From Methanobrevibacter sp. YE315 (GTDB taxonomy: Archaea > Methanobacteriota > Methanobacteria > Methanobacteriales > Methanobacteriaceae): a stretch of DNA of 64,000 bases. The notes beneath the pieces are model-generated. The model was not told the DNA's origin, searched no databases, and saw nothing but the letters and a program-made list of their open reading frames with translations. A program made the translations under genes and the position numbers. The DNA is taken from NCBI RefSeq assembly GCF_001548675.1, contig NZ_CP010834.1, positions 372,001-436,000 of the forward strand. Direction: 5' to 3'. Position 1 is the first letter of the stretch, and each line of letters starts with the position of its first letter. Shown here one piece after another: positions 17,960 to 28,060 of this stretch.

Positions 17960-18200
17960 AAAAAGTAGTACTATTTAAATCTTTACATTGTGCTTTTTTT
18001 AGTATTATTTTATCTATTATTTTTTTATTTTTAGTAATACTAGTATTACTATTTATTTACTATAATATACATTTGTAATACTTTTTATTTTATATAATAC
18101 TTGATATAAATTGGTTTTAGTAAGCCCTAAATCGAAACTTATTTATTAAAGATTTCACTGAAAATATATATTAATTAGAATTTATCTGGAGCGAATTTTA
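17960..18200. promoter_or_regulatory. hcgG upstream region with 20-bp perfect palindrome
   Basis: The region holds the perfect palindrome TAGTAATACTAGTATTACTA (18032-18051) and further AGTATTAC/GTAATACT half sites (for example near 18076). The same words recur in the control regions at 19729-20075 and 23516-23860. It is therefore a candidate operator shared by hmd, hcgG and the downstream operon. The hcgG start is preceded by GGAG. Confidence 0.5.
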
Positions 18201-19697: not shown

Positions 19698-20158
19698 ATA
19701 TTAACTTTTTATAAAAAATTATGCTTTAAAGTAGTATTATTTTTATAAAAAGTATTACTTTTTTTATTTTTATATTTTTTATTATATTTTCATTACTCAA
19801 AGAATTTTCATTGCTTTTTTTTAGGAATAACTTCTAAAATTATCTTTATTTTTATAAACAATGATGTTTGACAGTTAGTTTATCTTTTAAATTGATTTAA
19901 GGAATTTTTTTAATTATTATTTTTTATCAAAATATGAATTTCCATGCTTTTTTTCGATAATTCTCTTATGTTTATTCTTTATTTATTTTTTAAGTGTTTA
20001 TTTTTTCTTGATTAACTTAAAACTCTTGAATTTTGGAAGTAATACTTTAATAACATTTATATGGTTATTACTAGTGAGTAGTTTATAGATTATTATAATT
20101 AATTTTGTTAATTTTAATAATTTGGAGATTATTTCAATAAATAATTGGAGAGAGTAGT
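19698..20158. promoter_or_regulatory. control region of the electron-transfer operon
   Basis: This 461-base gene-free stretch contains a block at 19729-19780 (AGTAGTATTA...AGTATTACTT then a T-rich run). A promoter block at 20052-20075 carries the TATA-like TTTATATGG, directly followed by TTATTACTAGT. Both blocks reappear with the same spacing of about 320 bases at 23516-23567 and 23837-23860. The TTACTAGT dyad overlaps the expected transcription start, fitting an operator. A ribosome binding site GGAGAG precedes the GTG at 20159. Confidence 0.6.
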
Positions 20159-20509
20159 GTGGAAATTACGGTAGAAGAAATTGCCATGATAAGAGAAAAT
20201 TACAACCCTAAAAATACGAATTTAAATTTAGATGTTGACTGGTCAGTTGAATATAGGAATACTGATCAAAGAGACATACAATATGATTTTGTTTTAAAGT
20301 CTTGTGAATATTTAAATTTAAATTTTAAAATTTCCGGATTGGTTAGATTAGACAATTTTGAAGAATTCATCCAGCAAGATTGTTCTCAAATCGTTTTCCA
20401 TCATGCGTGTAACATATTAATGAGCATGATTTCATTAACTAGGCAATCAAATTATGAGTTATTAAATGAGGATATTAATTCTGCTGTAAATTTGGATGCT
20501 ACTTTTTAA
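20159..20509 (+). CDS. conserved hypothetical protein, first gene of electron-transfer operon
   Basis: This 116-residue soluble protein starts with GTG behind GGAGAGAGTA. I do not recognise a domain. It is acidic, mixed alpha/beta, with two cysteines (SCEYLN and QDCSQ) and a C-terminal half rich in hydrophobic and Asn residues. It precedes FdhA-, FdhB- and MvhD-like genes by 17 bases, and may be a small accessory subunit as in the flp gene group of Methanothermobacter. Confidence 0.6.
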   Translation: MEITVEEIAMIRENYNPKNTNLNLDVDWSVEYRNTDQRDIQYDFVLKSCEYLNLNFKISGLVRLDNFEEFIQQDCSQIVFHHACNILMSMISLTRQSNYELLNEDINSAVNLDATF

Positions 20510-20526
20510 AATTTTGGTGATGTATT

Positions 20527-21540
20527 ATGTTTGAAATTAAACACACGTTATGCCCATCATGCAGTGTTGGTTGTGGTATAAATGTGATTTTAGATAATGA
20601 AGAAATTGTGGGAACTTTTCCCTATAAAAGACATCCAGTTAACGCTGGTAAAAACTGTTTAAATGGAAGAAATTCTATTGATTGTTACAAAAACAAATTT
20701 GAAGCAGTTGATTTAAATAAAGCAATTGCAGACGCTTCAAATGAAATTAAATCTAATAATGCATCAGACATATCTGTAATCTGTTCTGGTAATGTCTGTG
20801 TTGAAGAAGTTGAAGCAATTAAAGATTTTGCTGAATTTAATGGATTTAATCTTGGGTTTTATGCTGATGGGTTGAAAAATTTTGACGATGTCGCTTCTTA
20901 TGATGATGTTGCACATGCAGGCAAAGTATTTGTAATCGGTGATTTGTTGTATGAAAATCCTTTGGTTGGAAGAAGAATTGTTCATGCAAAACAGAATGAT
21001 GCGAAAATATATGCTTTGAGCAAAAATGAAAGTGCAGTTACATTCAATATTGCAGATGAAACATCCAATTCATCAGTTCAGGAATTTATAGATAACTTTA
21101 TGGGAGAAATTGACGATTCATCAGTTGTTGTATTTAATTACGTTGATGAAAAGGATGATTTGGATAAATTAGAATCTTTAAATTGTAAAATTTTACCTGT
21201 TTTCAGCAAACCTAATACCAAAGGCGCTTTAAACATTATTGATTCAAAATCCAATGATGAACTGATAGAAATGTTCGATAACACTAAATTGCTAGTGGTT
21301 TTTAATGATGATGTTGTTGATGAATTCGATTATGACTTCACTAAAATATCCAAAATAATCAGTTTAGCCTGTTGTGAAAATGATACTACAAAAATCTCAG
21401 ATATTGTTATTCCTATTAAATCATGGTTGGAACAAGATGGATCTTTTGTAAATGCAATGGGTGAAACACAAAGTTTCAGTTCTGTAGTCGAATCTGATAA
21501 TTTAAGTATTGCTGAAATTATCGAGGAGTTAAATAAATAG
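20527..21540 (+). CDS. truncated FdhA-like molybdopterin oxidoreductase homologue
   Basis: This 337-residue protein keeps the N-terminal [4Fe-4S] domain of the molybdopterin oxidoreductase family (Cys9, Cys12, Cys16 and a fourth Cys about 27 residues on, near KNCLNGRNSIDC) and part of the following alpha/beta domain. Formate dehydrogenase alpha is about 680 residues; the cofactor-binding and catalytic half, with its Cys/Sec, is absent. It is thus unlikely to oxidise formate and may act as an electron-transfer or scaffold subunit. This matches the flp (formate-dehydrogenase-like) genes recalled from Methanothermobacter. Confidence 0.75.
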   Translation: MFEIKHTLCPSCSVGCGINVILDNEEIVGTFPYKRHPVNAGKNCLNGRNSIDCYKNKFEAVDLNKAIADASNEIKSNNASDISVICSGNVCVEEVEAIKDFAEFNGFNLGFYADGLKNFDDVASYDDVAHAGKVFVIGDLLYENPLVGRRIVHAKQNDAKIYALSKNESAVTFNIADETSNSSVQEFIDNFMGEIDDSSVVVFNYVDEKDDLDKLESLNCKILPVFSKPNTKGALNIIDSKSNDELIEMFDNTKLLVVFNDDVVDEFDYDFTKISKIISLACCENDTTKISDIVIPIKSWLEQDGSFVNAMGETQSFSSVVESDNLSIAEIIEELNK

Positions 21541-21549
21541 AGGGATAAT

Positions 21550-22689
21550 ATGAGTTACGTTTTAGCAAAATCTCAAAATAATGAAATTCATGAAGCAGGT
21601 GAATGTGGAGGAGCTGTAACTAGTATTCTCAAATATTTACTTGATGAAGGATTAGTTGATGGTGTTTTAGCATTAAGTCCTCAAGATGATGTTTATGATG
21701 CTTTGCCGGTTTTCGTTACTGATTCAGAAGATTTATTGAAAACTGCAGGGTCATATCACTGCGCTCCAACTATGATAGGTGACCTTGTTCAAAAATACTT
21801 CATTGATAAAAAAGTTGCATTCACAGTCAAACCATGTGACATGAGGGCTGTAGAAGAGCTTATCACAAGGCATAAAATTAATAAAGATAACATTTATATG
21901 ATTGGTTTAAATTGCGGAGGAACCGTTTCACCGGTTAGCGGTAGAGAAATGATTGATTTATTCTATGAAGCTAATCCTGATGATGTTGTAAGTGAAGAAA
22001 TCGACAAAGGACAATTCATCATTGAACTTGCAGACGGTTCTGAAGAAGCAGTGAAAATCCATGATCTTGAAAAAGAAGGTTATGGACGTCGTAACAACTG
22101 TCAAAGATGTGATGTTAAAATCCCAAGAAAAGCCAATATTGCTTGTGGAAATTGGGGTGCCGAAGATGGTTGGACCTTCATTGAAATCAACGATGAAAAA
22201 GGTCAGGAATTAATAGACGGTGCTAAAAAGGCAGGAATTCTCGAAACCAAATCTCCTTCTGATGCGGCTGTTGAAGGCAGATCTAAAGTCGAAAACATCA
22301 TGATTAAAATGGCTAAAAAGAATCAGGATGCAACCTACCCATCAGTTAGTGGAATGACTGAATGGAATCGTTGTATTAGCTGTTATGCTTGTCGTGATAT
22401 TTGTCCAATCTGCTGGTGTTTCGAAAACTGTGAGTTAAACAAACCTTACTTTAAAGATGAGGCAAACATTCCGCCAACTCCAATTGCTTTCCAAGGGGTA
22501 AGATTATCTCACATGAGTTTCAGTTGTTGTGACTGCGGCCAATGTGATGATGTATGTCCAATGGACATTCCTGTCTCATTAATCTTCGATAAATTGCAGA
22601 AAAAATACTATAATAGAACTGGTTATGTAGCTGGAGTTTCAGATGATATCAAACCTCCATTATACAGTCCAGAAAAAACCGAATTATGA
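21550..22689 (+). CDS. FrhB/FdhB-family F420-reducing beta subunit homologue
   Basis: This 379-residue protein has the FrhB/FdhB fold with GECGGAVTSILKYLLDEGLVDGVL near the N-terminus, PCDMRAVEEL, GLNCGGTVS and a cysteine cluster NNCQRCDVKIPRKANIACGNWG. A C-terminal double ferredoxin domain follows (CISCYACRDICPICWC and CCDCGQCDDVCPM). Relatives bind FAD and exchange hydride with coenzyme F420. In context it should pass electrons between F420 and the MvhD-like subunit next door. RBS AGGGAT is 5 bases before the ATG. Confidence 0.85.
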   Translation: MSYVLAKSQNNEIHEAGECGGAVTSILKYLLDEGLVDGVLALSPQDDVYDALPVFVTDSEDLLKTAGSYHCAPTMIGDLVQKYFIDKKVAFTVKPCDMRAVEELITRHKINKDNIYMIGLNCGGTVSPVSGREMIDLFYEANPDDVVSEEIDKGQFIIELADGSEEAVKIHDLEKEGYGRRNNCQRCDVKIPRKANIACGNWGAEDGWTFIEINDEKGQELIDGAKKAGILETKSPSDAAVEGRSKVENIMIKMAKKNQDATYPSVSGMTEWNRCISCYACRDICPICWCFENCELNKPYFKDEANIPPTPIAFQGVRLSHMSFSCCDCGQCDDVCPMDIPVSLIFDKLQKKYYNRTGYVAGVSDDIKPPLYSPEKTEL

Positions 22690-22698
22690 GGTGATTTG

Positions 22699-23103
22699 AT
22701 GTCTGATGATTTAAAAATTGTAGGTTTATTATGTAATTGGTGTTGTTATGGTGGTGCTGATACTGCAGGAACTGCACGTATGCAATACTCTCCAAACATA
22801 AGAATTATTCGTGTAATGTGTTCTGGAAGAATTAACCCTTCAATGATTTTCAAAGCATTTCAAGAAGGTGCTGATGGAGTATTTGTAGGAGGATGCCATA
22901 TTGGGGACTGCCATTATGATGCAGGTAACTACAAATGGTCAAGAAGATCAAAAATCGTTGAAGATATCCTTGAGGAATTTGGTATTGAAAAAGAAAGATT
23001 CCGTCATGAATGGATTTCAGCATCCGAAGGTGAAAAATTCCAAAGGACAATGGAGGAATTCCATAAAACTCTCTCAAAACTTGGACCATTAGAATTAGAG
23101 TAA
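22699..23103 (+). CDS. MvhD/FlpD-like [2Fe-2S] electron-transfer subunit
   Basis: This 134-residue protein of the MvhD family shows [15 protein letters not shown] at the N-terminus, followed by CSGRI and [10 protein letters not shown]. MvhD carries electrons from hydrogenase or formate dehydrogenase into heterodisulfide reductase. I chose the ATG at 22699, preceded by GAGGTGAT, over the TTG one codon earlier. It ends the operon and is followed by the first structured RNA element. Confidence 0.88.
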
Positions 23104-23126
23104 AAATAGCTAGCCATATATGGATT

Positions 23127-23443
23127 GTAAATAGCTATTTTAGCTATTTACTTTCATCCATTTAATTGTTTTTCTAAGATTAGTGTATTAATCACTAATG
23201 TTAGAAAAATAGTTAAAATTCTGTATTTTGGTTATTTTTCGATTATTGTCTTTATATTGATAAATCATCATTAGCCTGTAATATTGGTTGTTGGCATAAC
23301 CAGCCGGTATTGCATATTTTCTCCAAATCAATATGGGATAATAATAAAAAAGAGATTTGTATAATTATATATGGGTTTCTTTCACTGTCTACAATAGCTA
23401 TTAAAGCATTCGACTCCTCACATCTTTAATAGCTATTTTTTTT
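23127..23443 (+). ncRNA. candidate structured RNA, copy A, 3' of the electron-transfer operon
   Basis: Three hairpins lie in a gene-free region. The first is 23127-23151 (10-bp stem GTAAATAGCT/AGCTATTTAC). The second is 23169-23209 (9-bp plus 7-bp stem with a GG mismatch and 7-nt loop). The third is a 14-bp terminator stem 23393-23437 (AATAGCTATTAAAG/CTTTAATAGCTATT) ending in T residues. The same three elements occur in order at 23941-24167 with compensatory base changes (see findings). It may be a long 3' UTR, a processed RNA or an independent transcript. Confidence 0.6.
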
Positions 23444-23515
23444 AAAATCTTAAATTTTTTCTGGTTGGTTAATTTCAATTCAAATAATATTTTTTTATAA
23501 AAAAATATTATTATT

Positions 23516-23860
23516 AGTAGTATTATTTTTATTAAAAGTATTACTTTTTTTATTTTTATATTTTTAAGATATTGGCTCGAAGTTATCTCATTAAAATATT
23601 TGTTTTAACTGTTTGCGCATCTTTTATCAATTTTTTGAGGAGTTGCTTATTTTAATTAGTTATTTTTTAATTTAAGGTAATTTTAACAATTTTCGTAGTT
23701 ATTATCTTTTTTCAGAAACGGAATAAAAATTCTTTTCTAACAATAAAAACTGTTTTACAATTATATTTTGATAATTTAAGATATGTAATTTGTTTATTTT
23801 TATTTTAACGATTAATTTGAAGAGTATTACTGTAAAAACATTTATATGGTTATTACTAGT
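23516..23860 (+). promoter_or_regulatory. second copy of the electron-transfer operon control region
   Basis: A block at 23516-23567 (GTAGTATTATTTTTATTAAA, AGTATTAC and a T-rich run) and a promoter block at 23837-23860 (24 bases identical to 20052-20075, including TTTATATGG and TTATTACTAGT) are separated by about 320 bases, as in the first copy. The sequence between is only loosely similar. No gene follows; the candidate RNA copy B does. The TTACTAGTTAGTAA dyad overlaps the expected start site. Confidence 0.6.
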
Positions 23861-23884
23861 TAGTAAAGTATAGATTATCAAATT

Positions 23885-24170
23885 GGTTTTTGATAATTTA
23901 TATGTCCATACCTCAATTAAGAAATTTGGTCATAAACTTTGTAAATAGCTATAACAGCTATTTACACTCTATCTTTAATTTCCTTTCCAAGATTAGTGTT
24001 TTAATCACTAATGCTGGAAAGATATTATCTTTCAAAACTTCTTTGTATTTTAAGAAATATTAATATATTTCTCAGTCAATTTGCAAAAGCTATGCAATTC
24101 TTATACTAAGAATTGAAATTTTGTATCACTAATAGTTATTAAAGGGCTCTCAACTTTAATAACTATTTTT
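23885..24170 (+). ncRNA. candidate structured RNA, copy B, with its own promoter
   Basis: It is expected to start near 23865-23885 from the duplicated promoter. Hairpin 1 at 23941-23965 has the same 10-bp stem as copy A with loop ATAAC. Hairpin 2 at 23983-24021 keeps ATTAGTG/CACTAAT and the loop TTTTAAT but has a changed lower stem, CTTTCCA/TGGAAAG. The terminator stem at 24131-24167 reads AATAGTTATTAAAG/CTTTAATAACTATT. No ORF longer than a few residues is evident. The end overlaps the region where the convergent ABCE1 gene stops. Confidence 0.6.
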
Positions 24171-24173
24171 AAT

Positions 24174-25952
24174 TTAATCGGATAAGTAATAGTACTCTCC
24201 TTTCTCTTTTTGTTCACGATCTTTGTAGCTGTCAAGTTTGTTAACTCTTGGTCTTTTGGTTTCCTTATCCCTTCTGAATGTAATGTTGAGATTTCCTAAA
24301 AACTCATTCATCGCATTTCTTAAGTCTGTCGGCTTTGAAGCATGACCATTCAAACCAGGAGTTCCATTGAATACCATTGCCCTGTCGGAGATATAATCGA
24401 TAAATACGATATCGTGGTCTACAATAAGTGATGCCGCATTTCTGCTTTCAATCATCTTGCGGATAACACGTGCGGTTATTAATCTCTGTTCGACATCTAG
24501 GAATGCTGTCGGTTCGTCGAAAAGATAGATTTCAGCATCTTTTGATAATGTTGCAGCTATTGCTAACCTTTGAAGCTCTCCTCCACTCAATCCTTTAACA
24601 GGTTTATCCAACATGTCGTCTAAGGTTAATGGTTTCATTATTTCGCTTTCAAAGATTTTGCTTCCGAAACTTGGTGCGTTCATGTATAGGAAATCGCTTA
24701 CTGTTCCTTCAAAGTTTGAAACGATATATTGTGGCTTATAGGCTATTGTAACCTCTTCATCGACTTCACCGTTTGTAGGTTCCTCTACTCCTGCAAGCAT
24801 TTTTGCAAATGTGGTTTTACCGATACCGTTTGAACCGAATGCAGTAACAATCTCGTCATAAAAGATTTCACCTGCATCAGCGCTTAATTTGAATCCGTCA
24901 TAATCTTTGTTCAAATCGGAATAGCTTGCAATTGCATCCCCTTCATCTTCGGGGGTTGGTGGTCTGATTGTGAATTCGATTGGATTTCTTCTGATTCTTA
25001 CATTTTCTTCTGCTAAAAATCCATTGATATAAGCATTGATTCCTAAACGAACTCCTTTTCTTCCGGATACGACACCGTATCCTCCAGGTTGCCCGTATAA
25101 AATATGGATATTATCTGACAATGCATCTAAAGTAGCAAGGTCGTGTTCAATAACAAGTACGCTTTTGCCTTCTTCAGCTAAAGAACGGATTACTTTTACG
25201 GCATTCAATCTTTGGGATACGTCAAGCCAGGATGTAGGTTCGTCAAAGTAATAGAAATCGCCTTCTCTTAAAACTGTTGCAGCTATTGCAACTCTTTGAA
25301 GTTCCCCTCCACTGAGGTTTTCCATTTTTCTGTCCAATACGTTTTCAAGCTGCAATTCATTTGTAACATAATCCAGTTTGTCCCTTTCATTCACGTTTGA
25401 AAGAAGGTCTTTTACTTTTCCTTTTACGACTTTCGGCAGTTTGTCAACCATTTGAGGTTTTAAGATAGTTTTTATATTGCCTTCGGACAGGTCTTTAAAG
25501 TATTTCTGAAGTGAGGATCCCTTGTAATATTCAATTACAGCATCCCAGTTTTCAGGCTTGTTTTCATAGTCTCCGAAGTTTGGAATCAAACTGCCTGATA
25601 GGATATTCATGATTGTTGATTTACCAATACCGTTTGGTCCGAGAAGCCCTAGGACTGTTCCCTCTTCCAGGCTTGGAAGTCCGAACAATTCAAATTGGTT
25701 TTGGCCAAATCTGTGTATAGGTTCACCTACTGCTTCAGGCAAATTAATAATAGTAACAGCGTCAAATGGGCAGCGATTTGTACAGATACCGCACCCTTCA
25801 CATAATTCTTCAGATATCAACGGTTTTTTACTATCTTCATCAATTACAATTGTGTCCTCATCCATTCTAACGCCCGGACAGTAATGTATGCAAAGATAAT
25901 CACATTTTTTAGGTTGACATCTATCCTTGTCTAAAATTGAAATACGAGTCAT
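24174..25952 (-). CDS. ribosome recycling ATPase ABCE1/RLI
   Basis: This 592-residue protein has all parts of ABCE1: two N-terminal 4Fe-4S sites ([16 protein letters not shown] and [13 protein letters not shown]), nucleotide-binding domain 1 ([25 protein letters not shown]), a hinge, and domain 2 ([24 protein letters not shown]). It splits post-termination ribosomes together with aPelota or aRF1. The length is normal for archaea. It is a single-gene unit. Confidence 0.97.
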
Positions 25953-27585: not shown

Positions 27586-27675
27586 AATCTTTCACTTTTT
27601 TTTATTTTTTTGGAATATATTTATATATGAGTTTACACTAATCATTATATAACTATTGTTATAAAAATAATCAAT

Positions 27676-27776
27676 AAAATTTAGGCATGCCTAAATTTTT
27701 AGAAACATTTATATACTATAACAACTAATTTTAATACAAGTGACATATAATTTAGGTTAACCTAAATTTTTCACTT
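27676..27776 (+). promoter_or_regulatory. promoter with two DtxR/IdeR/MntR-like palindromic operators
   Basis: Two palindromes flank a TATA box. The first is a 24-bp palindrome at 27676-27699 with core TTTAGGCATGCCTAAA. The second is a 20-bp palindrome at 27749-27768 with core TTTAGGTTAACCTAAA, itself bracketed by AAGTGA/TCACTT arms. Between them is TTTATATACT (about 27708-27717), so transcription should run rightwards from about 27740, inside the second site. The TTAGG-N-CCTAA pattern is that of iron- or manganese-dependent DtxR-family repressors. No iron or manganese transport gene follows. Confidence 0.65.
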
Positions 27777-28056
27777 ATACAAAACATATTATTAGTCAAA
27801 TAATGGTTGAATTATCTCACACTTTTACTCTCACAAGTAACTATTAGAATTTTTAACCACATAAAATTTTCTAATTGAAAAAAGTGACCAAGATAATCAA
27901 CAAATACAATCTCCAAAATACATACATTGTATTAAATTAGCTTTCCACAATTTTCTAATTTAATGCAAAGGAAAATCTATCTGCCAAATAATTTTCCGAA
28001 AAACACGAATTGGTGTTTAACTCTCCTCAAACTAAACACCAATTAACTCTCTCTTT
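27740..28056 (+). ncRNA. candidate metal-regulated small RNA
   Basis: Between the DtxR-like promoter and a strong terminator there is no ORF longer than about 14 codons (27803-27847, no ribosome binding site). There are three clear hairpins: 27931-27964 (ATTAAATTAG/CTAATTTAAT), 27970-27997 (GGAAAAT/ATTTTCC) and the terminator at 28008-28044. It is a plausible small regulatory RNA of about 310 nt. The alternative is an orphaned leader whose gene was displaced by the viral element starting at 28071. Confidence 0.5.
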
Positions 28057-28060
28057 TTTA
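28008..28060. terminator. 12-bp hairpin terminator at host/virus junction
   Basis: A perfect stem AATTGGTGTTTA/TAAACACCAATT with a 13-nt loop is followed by CTCTCTCTTTTTT on the plus strand. It may also stop the minus-strand terminase transcript, which ends at 28071. Confidence 0.75.

Follow-up and report, generated by a model that had tools for sequence, protein, structure and literature searches.

Candidate antisense RNAs of a proposed nickel-sparing hydrogenase switch at the elp locus of Methanobrevibacter

Organization of the elp locus

The window, i.e., the whole 64,000-nucleotide stretch of Methanobrevibacter sp. YE315 analysed here, belongs to a genome of 2.27 Mb (G000) and carries two hmd paralogues, hmdB and hmdC, upstream of an electron-transfer operon. 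By the protein matches and positions of its genes, this operon, which precedes the first of two RNA segments (RNA A), corresponds to elpXABC of Nomura et al. 2025 (PMC12350162). Its genes are the following:

20159-20509, + strand, probable elpX, assigned by position
20527-21540, + strand, elpA, match to the Elp-Hdr chain of 8rvu (E=3.7e-27)
21550-22689, + strand, elpB, match to the Elp-Hdr chain of 8rvu (E=4.3e-153)
22696-23103, + strand, elpC, with an FlpD/MvhD domain

Elp is an F420-dependent electron donor that stands in for the [NiFe]-hydrogenase Mvh under nickel limitation, and Frh is replaced at low nickel by Hmd (with Mtd) (PMC12350162). In M. marburgensis at low nickel, Elp and Hmd increase and the Frh and Mvh proteins vanish, while mvh transcription is not downregulated, as cited by Nomura et al.; the mechanism that shuts off the nickel enzymes is not addressed in that paper (PMC12350162).

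Downstream of elpC, two segments with the features of structured RNAs were delimited, here called RNA A and RNA B:

23104-23445, + strand, RNA A, about 340 nt, predicted 3' UTR of the elp mRNA, adjoining elpC and supported by a consensus structure
23127-23151, + strand, RNA A hairpin 1
about 23161-23217, + strand, RNA A hairpin 2
23266-23276, + strand, RNA A predicted antisense strand 1, with CAUCAUUAGCC as the complement of AUGGCUGAUGAUG at the mvhD start
23277-23314, + strand, RNA A apical hairpin, between both antisense strands
23317-23324, + strand, RNA A predicted antisense strand 2, with UUUUCUCC as the complement of GGAGAAA, the Shine-Dalgarno region of mvhD
23393-23445, + strand, RNA A 14-bp terminal hairpin (23393-23437) followed by a T run
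23868-24172, + strand, RNA B, a free-standing RNA behind a separate predicted promoter; its 5' end is an estimate, and it has relatives in at least 13 further genomes
about 23900-23934, + strand, RNA B 5' stem-loop; its loop at 23910-23926, ACCUCAAUUAAGAAAUU, is the predicted antisense of the Shine-Dalgarno region of frhA
23940-23966, + strand, RNA B hairpin 1
23966-23976, + strand, RNA B linker ACUCUAUCUUU, predicted to pair with frhA codons 2-5 (AAAGAUAGAGU)
about 23983-24021, + strand, RNA B hairpin 2
24131-24172, + strand, RNA B 14-bp terminal hairpin (24131-24167) followed by a T run

A preliminary description of this DNA had reported two segments sharing three hairpins in the same order, and all of these elements are present where it had placed them. 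The hairpin 1 stem is identical between RNA A and RNA B and only the loop differs, the lower stem of hairpin 2 shows the two T-A to C-G changes that had been described, and the 14-bp terminal stem reads AGCTATT/AATAGCT in RNA A and AGTTATT/AATAACT in RNA B. Since a DNA search of the genome with RNA B as the query recovered RNA A with E=1.7e-16, the similarity is not due to chance. The idea of two related RNAs held for the hairpins common to both, but not for the working parts, which differ, RNA A being antisense to mvhD and RNA B to frhA. They are not two versions of one RNA: a large additional junction domain, conserved across 39 sequences, is found in RNA A alone, and RNA B instead has a promoter to itself and a 5' stem-loop, the latter outside the hairpins previously described. 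The common hairpins look like a scaffold. Regarding known RNA families, no match in the window reached the gathering score of Rfam 15, and at 22900-24300 only chance microRNA matches below gathering were obtained. As a separate observation, an element of the form AGTAGTATTATTTTTAT(A/T)AAAAGTATTACTTTTTTT was found on the + strand at 19733-19765 and 23516-23550, 3' of hmdC and of RNA A, respectively, and may be a terminator or an operator.

Conservation of the RNAs in Methanobacteriales

A covariance model built on hairpins 1 and 2 was searched in 151 Methanobacteriales genomes and matched 45 of them, all in the genus of the window (g1); in the Methanobacteriales genomes outside g1 it found nothing. 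A divergent RNA A was spotted by eye in G006. Over 68 distinct sequences of hairpins 1 and 2, 96.0% of the pair cells were paired, compared to 34-60% in controls in which the partner strand was slid, and 14 pairs were changed on both sides against 5.8 in shuffles, none of 500 shuffles reaching as high a number. The suggestion of a functional RNA family, made originally from the two segments alone, is borne out by these matches and their compensatory changes. Loss of the stems in close relatives had been named beforehand as evidence against such a family; the stems are kept there, and where parts of the RNA are lost or altered, elp genes are lost as well.

The RNA follows elpA, being present in 41 of the 46 genomes with elpA and in 4 of the 21 without it (p=3e-8). 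For instance, in the six genomes with two elp operons (G036, G037, G039, G042, G050 and G051) an RNA A lies behind each, and the RNA is shortened or altered in G030 and G041, which have lost elpA and most of elpB, as well as in one copy of G037 with a broken elpC. In nearly every RNA A locus that was read, RNA A lies directly 3' of elpC and starts at the elpC stop codon. Its consensus structure, derived from 39 sequences, comprises 61 pairs, of which 17 are compensated, and folds into hairpins 1 and 2, a long helix enclosing the junction, and the terminal hairpin. From its position, RNA A is predicted to be the 3' UTR of the elp mRNA, a location behind a coding sequence that it has in common with 3'UTR-derived sRNAs of the s-SodF kind. 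In G050 and G053, RNA B is located between hmdC and elpX.

Different arrangements were found in other genera. In Methanothermobacter-like genomes (g19), hmdC comes immediately behind elpC, and there is no room for such an RNA. The elp 3' UTR of genus g9, structured-looking and conserved, was considered as a homologue of RNA A and rejected, as there was no clear kinship. In that genus (L144, L146, L170-L174), elpC is followed by a different conserved, helix-rich 3' UTR with motifs such as AGACTGTTGAACAATA and TAGCTCATAATTAAAT, which may be an analogous regulatory RNA.

Promoters, operators and the putative regulon

The regulatory elements identified in the window are the following:

18033-18050, strand not applicable, perfect double operator AGTAATACTAGTATTACT between the divergent hmd and hmdC
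20038-20072, + strand, predicted promoter of the elp operon with operator, sequence pattern AGTAATACT...TATA...GTTATTACT
23823-23857, + strand, predicted promoter/operator of RNA B, a near-copy of the elp promoter

In the whole 2.27-Mb genome, the elp-type promoter pattern occurs only at 20038-20072 and 23823-23857. It was present upstream of elpA in 17 of 30 elpA loci, and it recurs at elp and at RNA B in many relatives. Both promoters contain AGTAWTACT, of which the window has six sites against 0.6 expected, distributed over the hmd/hmdC double site, the elp promoter, the RNA B promoter, and two copies lying between genes. Beyond the window, the motif was found upstream of the CbiMN nickel/cobalt transporter genes, upstream of frhA, and in the three tandem promoters of a heavy-metal P-type ATPase gene. 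RNA B has its operator in common with elp, hmd/hmdC, frh and the Ni/Co transporter; the regulator is putative, and NikR, of which the genome has one gene, would be the obvious candidate for binding these operators. At the ATPase locus (L047, G000:C1:934830-935064), AGTAATACTGAGTATTTAAATGAACTYAAAAAAAGTAATACT is repeated three times in tandem 5' of the gene.

These data bear on a purely cis-acting role, in which structured 3' ends would stop transcription and protect the elp mRNA and RNA B would be a duplicated terminator region. The position of RNA A in the 3' UTR and the strong hairpins with T runs that end both RNAs agree with such a role, but a regulated promoter of its own precedes RNA B, which in G050 and G053 is not next to elpC. 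Moreover, mRNA protection requires neither the species-specific complementarity between RNA B and frhA nor the unpaired conserved strands matching mvhD that are described below, and we consider an action in cis alone unlikely.

Complementarity between RNA B and frhA

Eight RNA segments were tried before the target matches were seen, and interaction energies were ranked over 169 translation starts, a sample enriched in hydrogenase loci and not the whole genome. The frhA gene was identified by the match of its product to TIGR03295 (E=3.7e-166). The loop of the RNA B 5' stem-loop can form 17 consecutive pairs with the frhA leader, including the Shine-Dalgarno sequence, to which AUAUGUC/GACAUAU is added, and the energy of -27.9 kcal/mol was the best among the 169 sampled starts and was reached by none of 5000 shuffles. 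Likewise, the linker can pair with frhA codons 2-5 at -14.3 kcal/mol, which corresponds to rank 2 in the same sample, and it is kept in two copies that have no hairpin 2 (L108, L112).

When compared across species, the frhA leader varies and the RNA B loop changes with it. For example, the loop reads ACCTCAATTTAAATTAG in G063, with the leader CTAATTTAAATTGAGGT; ACCTCAATTATAAAT in G021, with ATTTATAATTGAGGT; ACCTCGATTTTGAAAT in G053, with GTTTTAAAATTGAGGT; and CAATTAG in G012, with CTAATTG. In 14 genomes, the mean energy of a genome's own RNA B-frhA pair was -21.6, against -17.6 for swapped pairs, and none of 20000 permutations, uncorrected for kinship, was as good. The own pair came first in 10 of the 14 rows, ties included; it ranked lower in G058 (12 of 14), G033 (5) and G036 (2). 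In G015 and G027, the frhA leader has another Shine-Dalgarno sequence, and RNA B no longer matches it well. The two sites have the same 5'-3' order in RNA B as in frhA, which makes a single continuous duplex impossible, and alternative or kissing complexes would be needed; co-folding of RNA B with frhA used the Shine-Dalgarno site alone. The conservation of the frhA and mvhD starts gives no support in itself, as genomes without the RNAs conserve them to the same extent. Taken on the sequences of both partners, pairing between RNA B and frhA is strongly supported.

Another arrangement was noticed in G020 (L325, G020:C94) and G054 (L327, G054:C13), where the same or a similar elp-type promoter precedes a further RNA in which ACUACUCUAUCUUCAAAUA, complementary across the frhA start, is followed by a hairpin resembling hairpin 1.

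Complementarity between RNA A and mvhD

The mvhD gene is the first of mvhDGA. The two strands CAUCAUUAGCC and UUUUCUCC of RNA A match, in antiparallel order, the mvhD start AUGGCUGAUGAUG and its Shine-Dalgarno sequence GGAGAAA, and in the consensus structure both are unpaired parts of the conserved junction. For strand 1, the energy with mvhD was -17.7 kcal/mol, the first rank among the 169 sampled starts. Apart from RNA A itself, GGYTRRTGRTG has 29 matches in the genome, of which mvhD alone is located at a genuine start codon. The variants of strand 1, CATACATCAGCC, CATCATTGGCC, CATCATCAGCT and TTATTATTAGCC, would preserve the pairing through wobble or a bulge. Strand 2 tracks the mvhD leader, with UCUCC in 16 of 18 cases having GGAGAAA and UUUCC in all 7 having GGAAAAA, where the strand becomes UUUUUCC (Fisher 7e-5, uncorrected for kinship). 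A permutation of own against swapped energies for strand 2 and the mvhD leader was not significant (p=0.07).

The mvhD leader, AUAGAGGAGGA(G/A)AAACUCUAUGG (L185:10823-10860, - strand), is nearly invariant across the genus, including genomes without RNA A, and for this reason covariation on the mvhD side is mostly impossible. Co-folding of full-length RNA A with mvhD gained about 11 kcal/mol, which by itself is no proof of the proposed complex. Overall, the sequence matches make pairing between RNA A and mvhD well supported. The two RNAs are predicted to be antisense to ribosome binding sites of metalloenzymes encoded elsewhere, RNA B to frhA and RNA A to mvhD, the targets being approximately 1.6-1.7 Mb away.

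Two other parts of the RNAs were considered. For the invariant UUUCACUGUCUACA of RNA A, no convincing target was found among the 169 sampled starts. The C-rich terminal loops with CUCCUC were rejected as a general anti-Shine-Dalgarno device, since they vary, are absent from several copies, and lack the specificity to designate a target. The conservation of hairpins 1 and 2 and of UUUCACUGUCUACA, all without a target among the sampled starts, could be expected if the hairpins were binding sites for a protein, or for a ligand such as nickel, as a sponge or a riboswitch-like 3' element, with the complementarities as by-products. However, no Rfam family matches, the RNA B linker is kept in copies without hairpin 2, and RNA A has no downstream gene to switch, which leaves this as the least probable of the explanations weighed here.

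The direction of the effect on the targets was considered as well. The mvhD leader can fold a hairpin, AUAGAG/CUCUAU, around the Shine-Dalgarno sequence, also in genomes without RNA A, and the RNAs could pair with frhA and mvhD and yet activate or stabilise the mRNAs, for instance by opening this hairpin. The archaeal sRNA154 is a reported stabiliser of its targets and gives a precedent for such an effect. Against it, both RNAs would mask the Shine-Dalgarno sequence and the start codon, by which ribosomes are normally blocked, and they would be made together with Elp, which rises as Mvh falls in M. marburgensis (PMC12350162); activation is accordingly judged very unlikely.

A proposed nickel-sparing switch

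The preliminary description had suggested a role in H2 or formate metabolism. It was right in direction as to H2 metabolism. The operon is elpXABC, which is no formate system, and nickel limitation rather than formate is what the findings indicate. We consider it likely that the two RNAs regulate by antisense pairing as parts of a nickel-sparing switch. For Methanobrevibacter, we infer the following sequence of events. When nickel is scarce, the regulator binding AGTAWTACT, possibly NikR, would allow transcription of elp and RNA B from their twin promoters. RNA B would mask the Shine-Dalgarno region of frhA through its 5' loop, the first codons through its linker, or both, and would block synthesis of Frh, the F420-reducing [NiFe]-hydrogenase whose place Hmd takes. 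RNA A, carried in the elp 3' UTR and possibly released by processing, would mask the start codon of mvhD together with its Shine-Dalgarno region. As a result mvhD, which heads the operon of the Mvh [NiFe]-hydrogenase that Elp replaces, would be silenced. Hairpins 1 and 2 and the terminal hairpin would serve as a shared scaffold, providing stability or binding a common protein. The switch is supported by the disappearance of the Frh and Mvh proteins at low nickel in M. marburgensis without a fall in mvh transcription (PMC12350162). It is somewhat probable, in addition, that the isoenzyme switch is wired by RNA, each nickel hydrogenase (Frh and Mvh) having a dedicated antisense RNA, one of them inside the mRNA of the replacing enzyme.

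When compared to known systems, the nearest analogue of RNA A appears to be s-SodF of Streptomyces coelicolor, which derives from the 3'UTR of the Fe-SOD mRNA and, at low nickel, silences the mRNA of Ni-SOD (PMC9294342). In both, the 3' UTR of a nickel-free enzyme pairs with the mRNA of the nickel enzyme replaced, as predicted here for RNA A. Unlike s-SodF, RNA A is archaeal, a large structured RNA with two antisense strands, and without sequence kinship to it; the present system also involves other enzymes and a second, free-standing RNA, and its pairing is predicted. RyhB and its iron-sparing analogues PrrF, FsrA and IsrR are metal-limitation sRNAs that stand under the metal regulator of the pathway and block translation of dispensable metalloenzymes (PMC9294342). 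RNA B would resemble them in both respects; it differs in that the metal is nickel and not iron, the host is archaeal, and each RNA has apparently one main target. NikS of Helicobacter pylori, a NikR-regulated sRNA (PMC9294342), is comparable to RNA B, whose operator is apparently of the nickel type, but the targets of NikS are virulence and colonisation factors and not nickel enzymes for which isoenzymes stand in. The likeness to s-SodF and RyhB is one of mechanism, and neither could be recognised as a homologue. Among methanogens, sRNA154 of Methanosarcina mazei responds to nitrogen supply. Together with sRNA162, it is likewise a trans-acting sRNA, with a signal and targets unrelated to those predicted for RNA A and RNA B (PMC3177094, PMC3510493).

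Among the papers searched, no earlier report of such RNAs was found. If the proposed switch is true, it would to our knowledge be the first nickel-sparing sRNA system in Archaea and would extend metal-sparing RNA regulation to this domain. Making the nickel-free bypass would then automatically silence the nickel enzyme, which would explain how the Mvh protein vanishes without a fall in mvh transcription and would supply a mechanism for the shut-off of Frh and Mvh in Methanobrevibacter, a genus dominant in rumen and gut methane production. Antisense RNAs to the frhA and mvhD starts would represent a directly testable system with named base pairs.

An unrelated RNA candidate in the window

A second RNA candidate, unrelated to RNA A and RNA B, was noticed at 27640-28060 (+ strand), adjoining a prophage. 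It has palindromes TTTAGGNNNNCCTAAA in its promoter region that resemble sites of an iron regulator, conserved stems, and a terminal hairpin with the loop ACUCUCCUCA. By DNA search, 65 of 67 congeneric genomes carry it, frequently in several copies, and it is possibly an iron-responsive sRNA family.
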